DNA of 64,000 bases from Pseudoalteromonas piscicida (GTDB lineage Bacteria > Pseudomonadota > Gammaproteobacteria > Enterobacterales > Alteromonadaceae), in NCBI RefSeq assembly GCF_000238315.3, contig NZ_CP011924.1, forward strand, positions 4,052,001 through 4,116,000, in the 5' to 3' direction. Under the pieces are notes generated by a model. It saw only the letters and a list, made by a program, of their open reading frames with translations, did no database searches and was not told the DNA's origin. Positions within the stretch are counted from its first letter, which is position 1. Every line of letters starts with the position of its first letter. The position numbers were made by a program, and so were the translations under genes. Below, one piece after another: positions 28,448 to 55,704 of this stretch.

Positions 28448-28925
28448 GAGTAGCCGCGATCTTTTATGCCGAAAAACACACCATAGCTGCGACGTTATGT
28501 CGCGAAAAAGCACACCGTAGCAGCGACTTTATGTCGCGAAAAAGCACACCGTAGCAGCGACTTTATGTCGCGAAGAAGCACACCGTAGCAGCGACTTTAA
28601 GTCGCGAAGAAGCACACCGTAGCAGCGACTTTAAGTCGCGAAAAAGCACATCGTAGCAGCGGACTTTATGTCGCGAAAAAACATACCGTAGCAGCGACTT
28701 TATGTCGCCAAGAAACACATCGTAGCAGCGACTTTATGTCGCGAAAAAGCACACCGTAGCAGCGACTTTAAGTCGCCAAGAAACACATCGTAGCAGCGGA
28801 CTTTATGTCGCGAAAAAGCACACCGTAGCAGCGACTTTATGTCGCGAAGAAGCACACCGTAGCAGCGACTTTAAGTCGCCAAGAAACACATCGTAGCAGC
28901 GGACTTTATGTCGCGAAAAAGCAAA
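28448..28925. repeat. 34-bp tandem hairpin array (about 12 units)
   Basis: Twelve units start with GTAGCAGCG at 28517, 28551, 28585, 28619, 28653, 28688, 28722, 28756, 28790, 28825, 28859 and 28893; degenerate units precede them from about 28448. Each unit carries the palindrome GCGAC-TTTAT-GTCGC after the GTAG head, then a spacer GCGAAAAAGCACACC or close variants (AAGAAACACATC). Three units have one extra G (GCGGAC) and are 35 bp. Units vary (TTTATG/TTTAAG), and the order of variants suggests duplications of several units at once. It lies between the convergent hflC and porin genes. Confidence 0.92.
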
Positions 28926-46128: not shown

Positions 46129-47252
46129 GATAATAATACCAATTGCGAGGAGTACTGAGGTTTGCCACAGGCTCCACAGCTGCTCAATATCTGTAATCTT
46201 GTTTACCGTGATAGCGTAGACGAAGAAAATCAGTATGCGCGGCTTAGTTTAAAACTAATTATAGCGCCACTTAAATGCACATAAATAAGCCTGTATTCTG
46301 CCATATAAAGGCAATACCATCAATCAAGAAGCAAGAGAAGAAGAATAAAATATGGCAAGTGGTGGGAAGTGCTTGCAGAGGTGGTTTAACTGCTCTGTAG
46401 TCTTAATTTGGCACGGGATATAGTCGCCGGGTAAACCCGCGGCTCCCGCTGCTACGGTTTGGTTTAACTTTCTCAATGTCTTCAGTGGAAATTGTTGCGC
46501 CAAGTGCACGAAGTTGCTTAAAGCGTTCTCGTGCGGCTTGCTTAGCGCTGGCTTCAACAGGCACAAAATCTATCACCTGTTCAAAGCGACGAATAAAGTC
46601 AGGGACGACCCGAGCCAGATTAATGAGCACGGGGCGACGAGCAGCAGGAGGCATTGTGCCAATTTCCACCGGTGCGCCGCCTTTGGGGCCTTCGCCTTGT
46701 AAGTTGTGGGGCACAAACCTGTCTGCGTCAAAGCACCAAAGGTGCTCATCGAATAAATGAGCATCGTCAGTATTATCGACGTTAACAAAGATACGGTGTC
46801 CAGCTTGATACAAGCTCGCCGCAGTTTGTGCTGCCAGATCAAAATGAGCCGGAACGCTAATCCCCGGCTCATCGTTTTGTTTTAACACGTAAAAGCGCGC
46901 TTTGATAGTCATGATAATAATACCAATTGCGAGGAGTACTGAGGTTTGCCACAGGCTCCACAGCTGCTCAATATCTGTAATCTTGTTTACCGTGATAGCG
47001 TAGACGAAGAAAATCAGTATGCGCGGCTTAGTTTAAAACTAATTATAGCGCCACTTAAATGCACATAAATAAGCCTGTATTCTGCCATATAAAGGCAATA
47101 CCATCAATCAAGAAGCAAGAGAAGAAGAATAAAATATGGCAAGTGGTGGGAAGTGCTTGCAGAGGTGGTTTAACTGCTCTGTAGTCTTAATTTGGCACGG
47201 GATATAGTCGCCGGGTAAACCCGCGGCTCCCGCTGCTACGGTTTGGTTTAAC
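45685..47252. repeat. Perfect 784-bp tandem duplication containing holC
   Basis: Bases 45685-46468 are repeated in direct orientation as 46469-47252; I found no difference between the copies. Each unit contains all of holC except its stop codon, 340 bp of upstream sequence, and one degenerate unit of the neighbouring 58-bp array (GGGTAAACCCGCGGCTCCCG, CTGCTACGG). The junction (GGTTTAAC|TTTCTC) shows no microhomology with the outer borders. The identity means a very recent event or an assembly artefact. Confidence 0.93.
46403..46912 (-). CDS. holC: DNA polymerase III chi subunit, second copy with extended C-terminus
   Basis: Identical to the other holC copy through residue 148 (STEDIEK), but the stop codon was left outside the duplicated unit. 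Translation runs on through the junction for 21 residues (VKPNRSSGSRGFTRRLYPV, then PN) derived from repeat DNA, ending at 46403. The extension is not part of the family. Chi binds SSB through its other face, so the product may still fold, but this is inference. This copy comes first in transcription from pepA, with the intact copy 274 nt further on. Confidence 0.85.
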   Translation of the reverse strand: MTIKARFYVLKQNDEPGISVPAHFDLAAQTAASLYQAGHRIFVNVDNTDDAHLFDEHLWCFDADRFVPHNLQGEGPKGGAPVEIGTMPPAARRPVLINLARVVPDFIRRFEQVIDFVPVEASAKQAARERFKQLRALGATISTEDIEKVKPNRSSGSRGFTRRLYPVPN

Positions 47253-48092
47253 CTTGTGCAACTGCGACTTTATGTCGTGGAGTAAATCTGCTGCTACGGT
47301 TTGGGTTAATCTTGTGCAACTGCGACTTTATGTCGTGGAGTAAATCTGCTGCTACGGTTTGGGTTAATCTTGTGCAACTGCGACTTTATGTCGTGGAGTA
47401 AATCTGCTGCTACGGTTTGGGTTAATCTTGTGCAACTGCGACTTTATGTCGTGGAGTAAATCTGCTGCTACGGTTTGGGTTAATCTTGTGCAACTGCGAC
47501 TTTATGTCGTGGAGTAAATCTGCTGCTACGGTTTGGGTTAATCTTGTGCAACTGCGACTTTATGTCGTGGAGTAAATCTGCTGCTACGGTTTGGGTTAAT
47601 CTTGTGCAACTGCGACTTTATGTCGTGGAGTAAATCTGCTGCTACGGTTTGGGTTAATCTTGTGCAACTGCGACTTTATGTCGTGGAGTAAATCTGCTGC
47701 TACGGTTTGGGTTAATCTTGTGCAACTGCGACTTTATGTCGTGGAGTAAATCTGCTGCTACGGTTTGGGTTAATCTTGTGCAACTGCGACTTTATGTCGT
47801 GGAGTAAATCTGCTGCTACGGTTTGGGTTAATCTTGTGCAACTGCGACTTTATGTCGTGGAGTAAATCTGCTGCTACGGTTTGGGTTAACCTTGTGTAGC
47901 TGCGACTTTATGTCGTGGGGTAAATCCGCTGCTACGGTTTGGGTTAACCTTTTGCAGCTGCGACTTTAGGTCGCGGGGTAAACCCGCTGCTACGGTTTGG
48001 GTTAACCTTGTGTAGCTGCGACTTTATGTCGCGGGGTAAGTCTGCTGCTACGGTTTGGATTAACCTTGTGTAGCAGCGACTTTATGTCGCGA
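47225..48092. repeat. 58-bp tandem hairpin array (about 14-15 units)
   Basis: Units starting TAAATCTGCTGCTACGG occur every 58 bp from 47283 to 47863 (ten consecutive identical units), followed by three diverged units at 47921, 47979 and 48037 and preceded by a diverged one near 47225. Each has a TGCGACTTTATGTCG hairpin core and GCTGCTACGG, which is the reverse complement of the CCGTAGCAGC head of the 34-bp array. The last unit ends in GTAGCAGCGACTTTATGTCG. Identical middle and diverged edges point to recent internal amplification. The array lies between pepA and holC, which run in the same direction, so it is likely transcribed. No coding potential (58 is not a multiple of 3). Confidence 0.93.
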
Positions 48093-48123: not shown

Positions 48124-49635
48124 TTAGTCTTGCTGTGCGTCCGTGATATTGGCGCGGTTAAGTAAATATTGCATCAGCATAGGCACAGGACGACCTGTAG
48201 CGCCTTTGTTCTTGCCGCTGCGCCATGCAGTACCTGCGATGTCTAAATGCGCCCAGTTGTACTTTTTCGTAAATTTAGACAAGAAACACGCGGCTGTAAT
48301 CGTGCCAGCTGCGCGACCACCTAAGTTCGTAAAGTCAGCAAACGGGCTTTCAAGTTGTTCTTGATAATCATCCCAAAGCGGCAGTTGCCAAGCTCTGTCT
48401 CCACTTTGCTCTGACGCTTTTAGCAAATCATGGGCAAGCGGGTTATGGTTAGATAAAAGACCTGTCGCATGGCTACCAAGCGCAACAATACATGCCCCTG
48501 TTAATGTCGCAACATCGACAACGGTTTCCGGCTCGAATGCTTCAACGTAAGTTAGCGCATCGCACAGTACTAAGCGGCCTTCGGCATCCGTATTGAGTAC
48601 CTCAACGGTTTGACCGGACATGGTGGTTAAAATATCGCCCGGACGGTAAGCATCGCCCCCTGGCATATTTTCGCAGCCAGCTAATACACCAATCACATTA
48701 AGTGGCAGTTGCATTTGCACAACGGCTCGCATTAAGCCAAGTACGCCCGCGGCTCCGCCCATGTCGTATTTCATTTCATCCATCGCTTCGCCAGGCTTGA
48801 TAGAAATACCACCCGAGTCAAATGTTAATCCTTTACCCACGAATACGATTGGTGCTTGGCCTTCGTCACCACCGTTATAGTGGATAACCGACATCACTGA
48901 TTCGTTGCGACTACCACGGCCAACTGCTAGGTATGAGTGCATACCCAGCTCTTCCATCTCTTGTTCACCAACAAGGTTAACGGTAACGTTATCAAAGTCT
49001 TCAGCCAACTGTTGTGCTTGCTCGCCCAAATAACGAGGGTTACAGATATTTGGTGGCATATTCGCAACGTCTTTACACAACTTACTACCAGCGGCGATAG
49101 CAAGACCGTGCTCAATCGCGCTTTCACCGATTGTTAATTCACGGCGCGTTGGTACGTTAAAGACGATTTTACGTAGCGGGCGTCTAGCCTCACTCTTTTT
49201 GCTTTTTAGTTGATTAAAGGTATACAGGCAATCTTGCGTGGTTTCGACCGCTTGGCGAACTTTCCAGTAGGTATCACGACCTTTAACATGCTGCTCAGTC
49301 AGAAAACATACCGCTTCCATTGAGCCCGTTTCATTTAACGTATTGATGGTCTTAGAGATAATTTGTTTGTATTGTTTATCGTCGAGCTCTCTTTCCTTAC
49401 CACAACCCACTAACAAAACGCGTTCGCTGAGTACATTTGGTACATGATGAAGAAGTAGAACTTGTCCTGGTTTGCCTTCAAGATCACCACGTCTGAGTAA
49501 ATTTGAGATATAGCCTTCGCTTATTTTATCCAGCTGTTCACCAATTGGTGAGAGACGGCGTGGCTCGTATACACCAACAACAATACATGCGCTACGCTGT
49601 TTCTCTGGACTACCACTTTTAACGCTGAATTCCAT
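48124..49635 (-). CDS. pepA: Leucyl aminopeptidase PepA
   Basis: PepA is a hexameric M17 zinc/manganese aminopeptidase; in E. coli it also binds DNA at Xer sites and carAB. The catalytic C-domain has [30 protein letters not shown], and the signature [14 protein letters not shown]. The N-domain is normal and the total is 503 residues. It is the first gene of pepA-holC-valS and is divergent from lptF, the arrangement seen in E. coli. Array DNA begins 32 nt after its stop. Confidence 0.97.
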
Positions 49636-52101: not shown

Positions 52102-52599
52102 TTAGTCTAAGCTGTTATACACCTTTTTATTTTCCTCTTTGCTCAGTACCACTACCTCAGTACCACACAGCATATCCTGGAGCGATCTTTTCTTTTTAAA
52201 GTCTAACAACACTACCAGATTACCCAGTCCAAGTAGCGCGCATAGGCTACGAGCGATTGCTTTTGGCCAAGTTAACAGTGCTCCGTCGGGGGTTTGCACT
52301 TTTAGGCGCCATGCGCGCATACCGATAGTTTGACCGCTCTTAGTCCAAAAATAGGCAAAAAACAGCACCGAAACCAACACCAATAACGTGGCTCTAAGTG
52401 TATATAAGATAGGATCCGCTTGGATCAGCGCCGATACGTCTTCATGATTGCCAAGTGCGAGCATGTTAAATGAAATTAAGGCATTGATGGTTAGTAAAAA
52501 TAACACGGTAGTCAGCATTGCGAACGCGACGACCACTAAGTTGTCGTATATAAGTGAAGCCAAGCGACGGCTGAAATTCGCTGGAGCAAAATGTGACAT
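52102..52599 (-). CDS. RDD family membrane protein
   Basis: A 165-residue inner-membrane protein with the RDD pattern: Arg-rich start (FSRRLASLIYDNLVVVAFAM), a second helix (ATLLVLVSVLFFAYFWTKSG) and the conserved QTIGMRAWRLKVQTPDG. Some RDD proteins are Na+/H+ antiporters, but most are uncharacterised. ATG 52599 is preceded by TGAGAG; the frame extends 14 codons upstream with no ribosome site. It stands alone, between lptG (convergent) and the tRNA locus. Confidence 0.88.
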   Translation of the reverse strand: MSHFAPANFSRRLASLIYDNLVVVAFAMLTTVLFLLTINALISFNMLALGNHEDVSALIQADPILYTLRATLLVLVSVLFFAYFWTKSGQTIGMRAWRLKVQTPDGALLTWPKAIARSLCALLGLGNLVVLLDFKKKRSLQDMLCGTEVVVLSKEENKKVYNSLD

Positions 52600-52794
52600 A
52601 ACAACTCTCATAATTACAAGGTTGCGGAGTATTTTACACATAAACCGATAAAACGTTTACTGAATTACGTTAACTAATGGATTAGTAACATCTTGTCGTT
52701 ACCGTTTTAGCAGGAATAAAGTTGACTTTAGGGTAATATTTAACTGCTTGTGCACAAATAACAGGCAGTTAACGCCTTATTGCAAAAAAATTAC

Positions 52795-52822
52795 TTGCCG
52801 TTCTTAATCGCCTTTGTATAAT
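52795..52822 (+). promoter_or_regulatory. Sigma-70 promoter of tRNA-Leu
   Basis: TTGCCG at 52795-52800 and a perfect TATAAT at 52817-52822, 16 nt apart and preceded by TG. Transcription would start near 52829, giving a leader of about 88 nt before the tRNA. The remaining 52600-52794 region holds no gene. Confidence 0.78.
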
Positions 52823-52916
52823 GCAAAGCATAGAGACGAAGGCAAATAAAAAAAGCCTGAGCTCAAAGTGGTTTTTCTTTATTTTCTCTTGTTTTAGAAG
52901 ATGAAAGAAAAATTAT

Positions 52917-53001
52917 GCCAGTGTGATGGAATTGGTAGACATGACGGATTCAAAATCCGTTGCCTTCGGGCGTGGCGGTTCAAGTCCGCCCACTGGTACC
53001 A
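52917..53001 (+). tRNA. tRNA-Leu (CAA)
   Basis: An 85-nt class II tRNA. The acceptor stem GCCAGTG pairs with CACTGGT (one G-U pair), followed by ACCA with encoded CCA. The anticodon loop TTCAAAA gives anticodon CAA, reading UUG. The variable arm GTTGCCTTCGGGCGT is a long hairpin as expected for Leu, and the T arm is GGCGG-TTCAAGT-CCGCC. Its own promoter lies upstream and a terminator 10 nt downstream. This is the only tRNA gene I found in the window. Confidence 0.97.
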
Positions 53002-53010
53002 CTTTTTATA

Positions 53011-53038
53011 ACCCTTGCTTTCTAGCAAGGGTTTTTTT
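53011..53038 (+). terminator. Intrinsic terminator of tRNA-Leu
   Basis: ACCCTTGCT (53011-53019) pairs with AGCAAGGGT (53024-53032) around TTCT, followed by seven T. Confidence 0.93.
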
Positions 53039-54100
53039 ATGCCTGAATTGTAGGTCGAGATTTATCTCGACGAATTGGACGCCACGCGGGTGGCGCTAAT
53101 ACAGGTTAAGAGTCCGCCCACTGGTACCACTTTTTATAACCCTAACCGATTGGTTGGGGTTTTTTATGCCTCAAATTTATGCTTTGAAATTATGGTATTG
53201 GACTTGGGCGCCACGCGGGTGGCGCTAATACAGGTTAAGAGTCCGCCCACTGGTACCACTTTTTATAACCCTAACCGATTGGTTGGGGTTTTTTATGCCT
53301 CAAATTTATGCTATGAAATTATGGAATTGGACTTCGGCGCCACGCGGGTGGCGCTAATACAGGTTAAGAGTCCGCCCACTGGTACCACTTTTTATAACCC
53401 TAACCGATTGGTTGGGGTTTTTTATGCCTCAAATTTATGCTATGAAATTATGGAATTGGACTTCGGCGCCACGCGGGTGGCGCTAATACAGGTTAAGAGT
53501 CCGCCCACTGGTACCACTTTTTATAACCCTAACCGATTGGTTGGGGTTTTTTATGCCTCAAATTTATGCTATGAAATTATGGAATTGGACTTCGGCGCCA
53601 CGCGGGTGGCGCTAATACAGGTTAAGAGTCCGCCCACTGGTACCACTTTTTATAACCCTAACCGATTGGTTGGGGTTTTTTATGCCTCAAATTTATGCTA
53701 TGAAATTATGGTATTGGACTTGGGCGCCACGCGGGTGGCGCTAATACAAGTTAAGAGTCCGCTCACTGGTACCACTTTTTATAACCCTTGCTTTTTAGCA
53801 AGGTTCTTTATGCCTGAATTGTAGGTCGAGATTTATCTCGACGAATTGGGCGCCACGCGGGTGGCGCTAATATAGGTTAAGAGTCCGCCCACTGGTACCA
53901 CTTTTTATAACCCTTGCTTTTTAGCAGGGGTTTTTTATGCCTCAAATTTATGCTATGAAATTATGGTATTGGACTTGGGCGCCACGCGGGTGGCGCTAAT
54001 ACAAGTTAAGAGTCCGCTCACTGGTACCACTTTTTATAACCCTTGCTTTTTAGCAAGGTTCTTTATGCCTGAATTGTAGGTCGAGATTTATCTCGACTTA
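53039..54100 (+). repeat. Tandem array of tRNA-Leu 3' ends, terminators and palindromes
   Basis: Eight downstream copies of the tRNA 3' end plus following DNA (AGTCCGCCCACTGGTACCAC then TTTTTATAACCC) start at 53111, 53240, 53369, 53498, 53627, 53756, 53882 and 54011. The period is 129 bp (once 126). Most units also contain a terminator hairpin and the palindrome GGCGCCACGCGGGTGGCGC. Two types exist: one with the original CCTTGCT terminator and GTAGGTCGAGATTTATCTCG (53050, 53821, 54076), and one with a CCTAACCGATTGGTTGGGG terminator. A 249-codon frame at 53075-53824 exists only because 129 is a multiple of 3. No copy contains a full tRNA. Confidence 0.92.
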
Positions 54101-54312
54101 TTGGGTTTATCTCGACAAATTGCTTTAAGCGTCACATAACAGGTGCTATTTGCCGTTACAAATCAAGCTACCTCCACGGTTCAACCCATTATTCTAAACT
54201 GACAGTTACTTTCTCACAAAACTGGCAGTTTTCGGTAAATTGCCTATGCTTTTGTAATTAAATTGGTTTATTGTAGATTTAAGCAACTAAATTTTACTAG
54301 GCAAGCGAGGCG
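54101..54312. other. Intergenic region before the GGDEF gene
   Basis: About 210 AT-rich bases. The first 25 bases still carry a partial repeat (TTTATCTCGAC at about 54106). No RNA gene or clear operator was seen; the ribosome site AGGCGAGGCG precedes ATG 54313. Confidence 0.5.
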
Positions 54313-55704
54313 ATGAAGGTAACTGTAGAAAAGCAAACCATAGTGCTGTTATCGTTATTTACCATCGTGTTCTGGAGTTTGACGTTCTACGCGGTAAATC
54401 TTATTTCTCATTCCATTGTAGTTCAGGAGATCAGTGAAAGGACCGAGATAGTGAGGTCTAACGTATCGCTTGTTCGCGCAAAAATTGAAAATGCCATCTT
54501 TATGGATACCTATTTGGCTGAGAGCTTGGCTACTTTTGTTACAATCGATCCTGATTTTGCTATTGAGCATTGGTCGCATGTCGTATCAAAAGCGGTTGAA
54601 AAGTCGACGCTAATTCGTCATGTTGGTCTTGCTCCGAATAATATCATTAGTCATGTCTATCCTGTTGAAGAGAATCGAGCAGCTATCGGTTTCGATTTTC
54701 GTACTAACCCTGAACAATTTCGCACCGTTGAAATTGCCAGAACCTCTCAAAAGGTGTTTATCGCCGGTCCACTACAGCTAGTGCAAGGCGGTGAAGCCTT
54801 GATTGCGAGGTTTCCTGTGTTTTCAGATTATCCGAGGAATGAAAGCTACTGGGGCGCAATTAGTGTAGTTTTAGATTATCAAAAGCTGCTTGAATATAGT
54901 GGCATTAACGATTTGGACAGCGCCGTTTTAGCTATTCGAGGTCGAGATGGATTAGGTGAACAGGGGGATGTCTTTTATGGCTCTGCTACCTTGTTTGAAA
55001 CACCAGATCTAGTCATCCCAATCAATTTACCATCTGGTGAATGGCAGCTTGTGGCTGATTATCAAATAGACGAGAGCACTTATGCAAAAGCAAGACAGCA
55101 AGCACAGATTTTGGTTACTGCTGTTGCTTCAATATTATTTCTCTCGTTATTAGTACTCTATCGAGCGTATCACTTAGCACATACAGCCTCGCTGCAAGAC
55201 GACTTAACTAAGTTGCCTAACCGTCGCTATGCGATTAGGCAACTCAATACGTTACTTGGTCGTTCAGAGCAACCGTCATTTGTGCTGCTTAACCTCGATC
55301 TAAATAATTTTAAACAAGTAAACGATAAGTTTGGTCATGAAGTGGGAGATAAGCTGTTGCTTCATGTCTCGTCAATTTTGATGAACTCAGTGCGTGTGTA
55401 CGATTTTATCGCACGCTTAGGTGGGGATGAGTTTGTTATTATTTTACACAGAGTGTCAGAAGACGCTTTGGTTAACTCAATTATAAAAAATATTAAGGAG
55501 CAGGTTGAAAAGCAACCGCTGCAAGTTGATAGGCACACTATTCAAACGACGGTAAGCGTTGGCTATGCTTTCCCTACAGCAAACCAAGATAGTGTCTCAG
55601 AACTCATGGCTCGCGCCGACCACAACATGTATTACGATAAAAATCTGTCGCAACGACAGCAAAACAAAAGTGAGGTTTTGGAAACAAATCAGGAAACCCA
55701 CTAG
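54313..55704 (+). CDS. Membrane diguanylate cyclase with CHASE-like sensor domain
   Basis: A 463-residue inner-membrane protein that should make cyclic di-GMP. A membrane helix (about residues 9-30), a periplasmic domain of about 230 residues resembling CHASE (NPEQFRTVEIARTSQKVFIA, LVQGGEALIARFPVF), a second helix (about 267-284) and a GGDEF domain follow. The active-site GGDEF is at residues 370-374 and the inhibitory RxxD site (Arg361-Asp364) sits five residues before it, so product inhibition is expected. The histidine kinase gene starts 45 nt downstream on the same strand and is probably co-transcribed. Confidence 0.93.
   Translation: MKVTVEKQTIVLLSLFTIVFWSLTFYAVNLISHSIVVQEISERTEIVRSNVSLVRAKIENAIFMDTYLAESLATFVTIDPDFAIEHWSHVVSKAVEKSTLIRHVGLAPNNIISHVYPVEENRAAIGFDFRTNPEQFRTVEIARTSQKVFIAGPLQLVQGGEALIARFPVFSDYPRNESYWGAISVVLDYQKLLEYSGINDLDSAVLAIRGRDGLGEQGDVFYGSATLFETPDLVIPINLPSGEWQLVADYQIDESTYAKARQQAQILVTAVASILFLSLLVLYRAYHLAHTASLQDDLTKLPNRRYAIRQLNTLLGRSEQPSFVLLNLDLNNFKQVNDKFGHEVGDKLLLHVSSILMNSVRVYDFIARLGGDEFVIILHRVSEDALVNSIIKNIKEQVEKQPLQVDRHTIQTTVSVGYAFPTANQDSVSELMARADHNMYYDKNLSQRQQNKSEVLETNQETH

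Follow-up and report, generated by a model that had tools for sequence, protein, structure and literature searches.

The window, by which we mean the whole stretch of 64,000 nt analysed from Pseudoalteromonas piscicida, contains exactly one tRNA gene, that for tRNA-Leu(CAA) (ARAGORN), and behind this gene lies a tandem array that occupies 53002-54029. A first-pass annotation had described eight tandem copies of the tRNA's 3' end at this place, and that is indeed what is there: between 52901 and 54200 there are nine occurrences of the 19-mer AGTCCGCYCACTGGTACCA, one of them in tRNA-Leu(CAA) and eight downstream, and Tandem Repeats Finder reports a period of 129 with 7.5 copies and a score of 1600. 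The units are listed in Table 1, in which the last position of each is the CCA end of its tRNA copy.

Table 1. The tRNA-Leu(CAA) gene and the units behind it, in window coordinates
Feature	Position	Strand	Evidence
Promoter-like site TTGCCG-16-TATAAT, upstream of the tRNA gene	52795-52822	+	consensus scan
tRNA-Leu(CAA) gene, T-arm GGCGG-TTCAAGT-CCGCC, CCA encoded	52917-53001	+	ARAGORN; Rfam tRNA
Terminator-like stem of the tRNA, 10 pairs then T run; opens unit 1	53010-53033	+	terminator scan
Unit 1, 128 bp, REP-like variant; GTAGGTCGAGATTTATCTCGAC at 53050-53071	53002-53129	+	
Unit 2, 129 bp	53130-53258	+	sequence reading, identity comparison, terminator scan, CM match
Unit 2: terminator-like stem	53138-53161	+	
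Unit 2: inverted T-arm GGACTTGGGCGCCAC, after a linker; then a short loop	53200-53214	+	
Unit 2: T-stem 5' strand GTGGCG	53219-53224	+	
Unit 2: T-loop replacement CTAATACAGGTTAAG	53225-53239	+	
Unit 2: direct tRNA 3' end	53240-53258	+	
Unit 3, 129 bp, identical to units 4 and 5	53259-53387	+	
Unit 4, 129 bp	53388-53516	+	
Unit 5, 129 bp	53517-53645	+	
Unit 6, 129 bp, tail AGTCCGCTCACTGG	53646-53774	+	
Unit 7, 126 bp, REP-like variant, palindrome 53821-53842	53775-53900	+	
Unit 8, 129 bp, tail AGTCCGCTCACTGG	53901-54029	+	
Terminator-like stem behind the last copy; then a further REP-like palindrome, 54076-54097	54041-54058	+	

The repeat had been thought to run from the T arm through CCA to the terminator. 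It does continue into the trailer; its tRNA part, of about 19 nt, begins at about base 58 of the T-loop. The exact run shared with tRNA-Leu(CAA) is 33 bp in five copies, 39 bp in one and 7 bp in two. Every unit closes with AGTCCGCCCACTGGTACCA or with its CT variant, and the two short runs are those of the variant. A terminator-like stem then follows, as it does behind all nine tRNA ends, that of the tRNA itself included; the stems behind copies 6 and 8 are shorter (7 pairs, with a TTCTTT tail). Scanned on both strands, 52700-54320 yields 16 terminator-like sites versus 2.5 +/- 1.9 in shuffles. Promoter-like sites in the same interval are no commoner than in shuffles (3 and 3.2), and the consensus scan finds only one on the plus strand, the site upstream of the tRNA gene, and none inside the array.

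Six of the eight units also carry an inverted T-arm (GGACTTGGGCGCCAC or GGACTTCGGCGCCAC), and this faces a direct T-arm copy whose T-loop is replaced by about 15 bases. The earlier description had given most units a palindrome; it overlooked the inverted T-arm, and a REP-like palindrome (GTAGGTCGAGATTTATCTCGAC) is present in units 1 and 7, where it occupies the site expected for the outer half of that arm. Read along the hairpin of unit 2, the first piece approximates the reverse complement of the tRNA's own T-arm, GTGGCGGTTCAAGTCC, and the last pieces are the direct T-arm with its loop replaced. Read in this way, the unit is an inverted T-arm duplication, the second arm of which has been opened at about base 58.

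Units 3, 4 and 5 are the same, base for base, and identity within units 2-6 is 96.9-100%. Units 1 and 7 are 95.3% identical to each other and 76.5-78.1% identical to units 2-6, from which they diverge because their linker and outer inverted arm are taken up by a GTAG-type palindrome. Unit 8, 93.8% identical to unit 6, falls in between. The identity of units 3-5 and the likeness of 1 to 7 fit unequal exchange, judging by the repeats themselves. Misassembly is unlikely, since units 1 and 7 differ from units 2-6, the host assembly comprises just two contigs (one of 4.25 Mb, and the rest), and 44 other assemblies have units too. Two other tandem arrays occur in the window: about 14 copies of a 34-bp REP-like unit, GTAGCAGCGACTTTATGTCGCG..., at 28450-28923, and 14.8 copies of a 58-bp unit (97% match) at 47232-48089. 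The latter adjoins a minus-strand ORF of 503 aa, 48124-49635, which we take to be pepA.

Several other identities were considered for the array and set aside. An ORF of 249 aa, 53075-53824, passes through several units because 129 is a multiple of three; among ten genomes checked, unit spacings are all multiples of three only in G000 and G008. Its Pfam matches are to four unrelated families, two of them above the whole-protein cut-off by virtue of summed repeats, and no single stretch passes alone. We take it to be a chance open frame. No Rfam family besides tRNA reaches its gathering score in 52500-54600, STnc370 and MicX falling far below theirs. Nor is a phage origin indicated: a distant blastn search of 50,697 phage records returned 20, all on the tRNA part alone (bases 1-85), with a best coverage of 7%.

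Units of this kind are not peculiar to this strain. Absence from all close relatives had been set beforehand as the result that would speak for a neutral, strain-specific expansion; instead, of 108 Pseudoalteromonas genomes searched with a covariance model, R1, 45 contain units, and the other 63 show none at the threshold used. R1 was built from an alignment, A1, of 64 distinct hairpins from 33 genomes, identical hairpins being counted once. Eight of 72 distinct hairpins were omitted from A1 as irregular (G000_107, G000_878, G098_366, G098_491, G075_629, G071_876, G100_195 and G113_775); the collection skipped six loci (L065, L068, L074, L118, L119, L141) and the far matches of L108 and L112; and A1 is without the units of G007, G011, G053, G058, G062, G081, G086, G090 and G108, so that the discordant G053 stands outside the tracking counts given below. 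Genomes with units have from one to eight copies. By coordinate comparison, 41 of the 45 have a unit no more than 2 kb downstream of tRNA-Leu(CAA); among the other four, the units of G086 are set off from it by an island, at a distance of 7.2 kb, and those of G011, G062 and G081 are on other contigs. In the genome of the window, all eight R1 matches besides the tRNA itself fall in the array.

In wider samples, searched under stricter filters, R1 finds units in 2 of 295 genomes of an order sample (the present one and G397), in 2 of 152 genomes of the family to which G397 belongs (G397 and G479), and, among the 369 genomes of a class sample, in the present one only. In G397 and G479, members of another family, the gene that precedes the units is tRNA-Leu(UAA), part of a Gly-Cys-Leu tRNA cluster, and their T-stem is that of this tRNA.

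The inverted T-arm can also be sought directly. Among 98 tRNA-Leu(CAA) loci with at least 150 bp of downstream sequence, an inverted T-arm scoring at least 8 occurs within 220 bp in 38 of the 42 with R1 units and in 5 of the 56 without; the same test applied 1.3 kb away as a control gives such scores in 5 of 96. Three of the five high-scoring loci without R1 units look relic-like by eye (G059, G117 and G020, the last retaining only a truncated unit start), that of G120 has a different tRNA-end repeat, and that of G013 is chance-like. Additional relics were recognized by reading in G116 and G070. The repeat of G120 (L141) is a longer one of tRNA-Leu(CAA), from the variable arm on, and has no T-loop replacement. 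A second tRNA-tail duplication within the genus occurs in G016 (L159), where tRNA-Phe is followed by a partial copy of its end and a terminator. In some units the tRNA tail is lost after CTGG and the sequence runs into a repeat, GTGAGAGTGAACCGAAACGAAGTTTCGCAG...: L131 (G007), L126 (G111), L127 (G092), L145 (G068) and L208 (G005). In G007, this repeat is in tandem with the hairpin.

Do the units follow the tRNA behind which they lie? Most species have G-C as pair 50:64 of the tRNA's T-stem and others have C-G, and base 57 of the T-loop is A or G; all four combinations are present among the A1 rows. The inverted T-loop position of the unit agrees with its own tRNA in 63 of the 64 rows, the inverted T-stem position in 58, and the two direct T-stem positions in 60 and 59. 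At the outermost inverted position, agreement falls to just 22 of 64. A third state of 50:64, A-U, occurs in G062, and the hairpins there, GTGAC/GTCAC, match it; the direct tail reads CCGTCC in three of the four units read, and in the last CCGCCC, the G-C state.

In a pepA tree of 30 genomes, several forks of which are unresolved, all unit-bearing genomes with a C-G tRNA fall in one fully supported clade of 11, alongside G-C species; one group within this clade has A57 among G57 species. C-G occurs outside the clade as well, in G119, which has no units. Judged by the tRNA states and the tree, the independent tRNA changes that underlie the tracking would be few, about four. The exceptions are informative, though not many: the relics of G116, which lacks the tRNA tail, and G053, whose tail is altered, keep the older state, GGCGG, and the tRNA of each is now GCCGG. 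G070 is a mixed relic. The argument from relics thus comes to two clear cases and one mixed, because three units that have lost the tRNA tail or have it altered (G111_215, G092_97 and G022_218) still match their tRNA.

Could all of this have arisen neutrally and by accident, from a single duplication that slippage multiplied without any process directed by the tRNA, the match merely reflecting the shared ancestry of a linked block of tRNA and array? Patchy distribution, variable copy number and decaying relics are what such an accident would leave. The T-loop replacement is recognizably similar across clades, however, and for this reason the units look homologous, not made afresh; old as they look, the T-arm pieces they carry agree with tRNA states that vary from one part of the genus to another. 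The same layout, moreover, recurs behind tRNAs for four amino acids, as described below. The tracking data have already weakened the neutral reading, and we consider it very unlikely.

Signs of recombination are found in relatives, too. In G103, a 5.7-kb island is followed by the 3' half of the tRNA fused to the right arm of a unit, and this chimera, as far as its sequence can tell, directly records an exchange of the tRNA with a unit. The first-pass suggestion that the array could simply be a recombination product therefore holds in part: besides the identical units 3-5 there is this chimera, and units mostly match their tRNA. A comparable case may be the Salmonella rtT locus, listed as a 175-bp VNTR (PMC2658671).

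Islands also lie at several of these tRNA genes. Motifs resembling TGTGACGATTTTTTG occur near both ends of the tRNA-Leu(CAA) islands in L206 (G086) and L204 (G103), singly in L209, L210 and L158, and not at all in L211, L212 and L118. The G086 island encodes a PtuA-like ATPase and an HNH protein (Septu-like), and the G103 island an OLD-like ATPase.

An element of a different sort might be suspected: a minimal site-specific one inserted repeatedly in tandem, for which the T-loop is the attachment site and a tyrosine recombinase acts in trans, the T-loop-to-CCA repeat being the core that restores the tRNA at each insertion. In RtT units as in those of Pseudoalteromonas, the direct copy does start near base 58 of the T-loop, which is where many P4-type integrases cross over, and in E. 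coli the sequence behind the last copy differs from the start of the unit, as expected of a junction between element and host. Yet the longer partial tRNA copies near tRNA-Leu(CAA) in relatives, at least some of which are at island ends, begin at base 30-33, in the anticodon loop, not the T-loop. In the two islands read (G086 and G103), no integrase was recognized, four ORFs having been given a family search. The exact repeat here continues past CCA into the trailer; units 1 and 7 resemble each other, as do units 6 and 8, in a way that looks like unequal exchange instead. Altogether, we think such an element improbable.

The best-known neighbor of the array is rtT, behind tyrT in E. coli. The first-pass annotation saw the likeness, and it goes deeper than was supposed: both kinds of unit contain, inverted, the T-arm of the tRNA to which they belong. 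In E. coli K-12, the unit runs GGGGAAGGATGAGAAGCTTCGA ... AAGGTTCGAC ... GAGTAATCCTTCCCCCACCACCA, that is, an inverted tRNA-Tyr T-arm, a direct T-arm whose T-loop is interrupted by an insert, and the tail; and RttR, annotated as 171 nt, terminates exactly at the CCA of the tRNA-Tyr copy. The Rfam RtT model (RF00391) matches 50 of 274 class genomes at E<=0.001, and 18 of the 274 above its cut-off; it has no match at E<=5 in 52500-54600, and none at E<=0.001 in the genome of the window under strict filters. Thirty RtT loci were fetched. At 20 of them the 3' end of a tRNA (Tyr, Ser or Gln) is repeated downstream of its gene, and by that rule the other 10 show nothing of the kind.

Shuffling shows how far the inverted arm generalizes. 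We examined 31 cases with 100 shuffles each: those 20 of the 30 RtT loci, E. coli tyrV, 8 of the 45 unit-bearing Pseudoalteromonas genomes, G397 and G479. The inverted T-arm of the tRNA concerned beats all 100 shuffles in 25 of the 31, including E. coli tyrV, 16 of the 20 RtT loci and 6 of the 8 Pseudoalteromonas, and in 18 of the 31 it is better than the T-arm of every other tRNA. Among the RtT loci that fall below, L239 has no inverted arm (37 of 100 shuffles are as good) and L238, L250 and L251 have 1 to 3 per 100; G111 has 1. For unit 2 of the window, 5 of 100 shuffles are as good, so the signal is weak in this genome alone. By their sequences, then, E. coli tyrT/rtT and 16 of the 30 fetched RtT loci show the full layout, tail plus inverted T-arm.

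Like the rtT units of tyrT and tyrV and those of Rfam RtT, the units described here lie behind a tRNA (in tandem, in E. coli), end in its 3' end with CCA, resume the direct copy in the T-loop, and contain the inverted T-arm of the same tRNA. Even the junctions GAGTAATCC (RtT) and GAGTTAAAGTCC (G005) look alike. The tRNA differs, however, being Leu here and Tyr, Ser or Gln there; the unit of about 129 bp appears on reading to have neither the multi-hairpin core of RtT nor its CCCGNAGGG motif; and each unit here has a terminator-like stem, whereas the E. coli trailer, as read, is without a T-run terminator and some other RtT loci have one. Judged by layout, the array is an RtT variant in reduced form, and judged by the model it is outside Rfam RtT. 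It had been called an independent instance; the layout turns out to be common to RtT-model loci behind tRNA-Tyr, -Ser and -Gln in other gammaproteobacteria, and the leucine unit may have come from RtT by descent or reached its layout by convergence.

Resemblances to other systems are more limited. REP and BIME elements are likewise palindromic intergenic repeats, and a palindrome of the GTAG type interrupts units 1 and 7; the unit here differs in that it includes tRNA sequence, belongs to a single tRNA gene, and is undispersed in its own genome. According to PMC2965389, rtT-like elements that lie upstream of enterobacterial genes are to be counted among the BIMEs. Islands and prophages that target tRNA genes also create direct repeats of tRNA 3' ends, but the units are free of genes and their copies start in the T-loop, in contrast to the anticodon-loop starts of the longer copies in relatives. 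The 3'ETS-leuZ sponge of E. coli, too, is a tRNA-Leu trailer; to our knowledge, it has no repeat array. Neither an inverted T-arm in rtT nor tRNA-tail arrays in Pseudoalteromonas are described in the open-licence literature that we found, outside which the original rtT papers lie.

Selection might, alternatively, act on the RNA of these units. Read-through transcripts would be cleaved at every CCA to give RNAs that resemble tRNA, about 129 nt long, in which the inverted T-arm pairs with the T-arm, and these would serve as sponges for tRNA processing or adjust it, or behave as RttR does in the stringent response. An effect of rtT on that response is reported for E. coli (PMC4986893, PMC2965389), and Northern signals for RtT-family RNAs of Actinobacillus (PMC4986893). 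The end of RttR exactly at CCA agrees with this reading; so does the conservation, at least 90% in A1, of the two C bases of CCA, and so does the folding of a unit-length stretch, 53132-53260, which is more stable than that of shuffles (z -2.2, 4 of 200 as good).

Against this, a terminator-like stem stands before every unit, and no plus-strand promoter-like site lies within the array. A conserved structural RNA was expected to reveal itself by strong covariation, which is absent, and RNAalifold finds no consensus structure, 0 pairs, over the 64 units. Of 19 double-sided changes, 17 fall at two pairs, 11:63 and 24:39, both of which match a single pair of the tRNA T-stem, 50:64. In clade B, inner-stem pair 23:40 is mismatched in all 19 rows, 17 of them C-C, and stays uncorrected. 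Thirteen of the 72 distinct hairpins have no CCA end, and presence is patchy, more than half of the genus genomes having no unit at the threshold used. The proposal of the first-pass annotation that array RNA titrates tRNA-processing or tRNA-binding proteins is disfavoured on account of the stems and the empty consensus, and selection for RNA more broadly strikes us as unlikely.

What has to be explained is the layout, the distribution, and the fact that units mostly match their own tRNA. The account toward which we lean, with modest confidence, is that the array is a reduced tRNA-tail repeat of the RtT type that works mainly at the level of DNA and is maintained mainly by recombination with its tRNA gene. 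The typical unit would be a T-arm quasi-palindrome: inverted T-arm, short loop, direct T-arm with a T-loop replacement of about 15 bases, CCA tail, trailer and terminator. Unequal crossing-over between tRNA gene and units, by way of the homology of tail and trailer, would change the number of copies, and exchange across the same shared tail and trailer would rewrite the direct arm to match the tRNA gene. Such tRNA changes might then reach the inverted copy by template switching from one arm of the hairpin to the other; we assume switching because 17-21 nt is short for exchange of the RecA type. Throughout, the tRNA would be kept intact, since each unit gives it back its 3' end and brings a terminator with it. 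Any read-through RNA could still be cut into unit-length, CCA-ended RNAs like E. coli RttR, by analogy, and would probably be a by-product. The uncorrected mismatches of clade B make the hairpin-correction step the weakest part of this DNA-level account, and the similarity of the T-loop replacement across clades would also fit selection.

If this is on the right track, a bolder generalization comes into view, which we offer tentatively and regard as doubtful. RtT-type units might form one widespread class of gammaproteobacterial tRNA-borne repeat, each a quasi-palindrome lodged in a copied T-loop that rewrites its inverted arm from the host tRNA (Tyr, Ser, Gln, Leu-CAA or Leu-UAA), and that, as a selfish element tailoring itself, spreads from one tRNA gene to another or coevolves with these genes. 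E. coli rtT would be its best-known member.

Until now, rtT behind E. coli tyrT has looked like the curiosity of one tRNA. A common layout behind tRNA-Tyr, -Ser, -Gln and two kinds of tRNA-Leu makes of it a class with a testable rule, and it is this general rule, of a tail together with the host tRNA's T-arm in inverted form, that seems to us the part worth following. The leucine series, with its 45 genomes, provides natural experiments on how repeats are rewritten: three states of the T-stem, two of the T-loop, relics with and without tails, and one chimera. It offers, as well, a simple alternative to accounts of RtT that rely on a function of the RNA.
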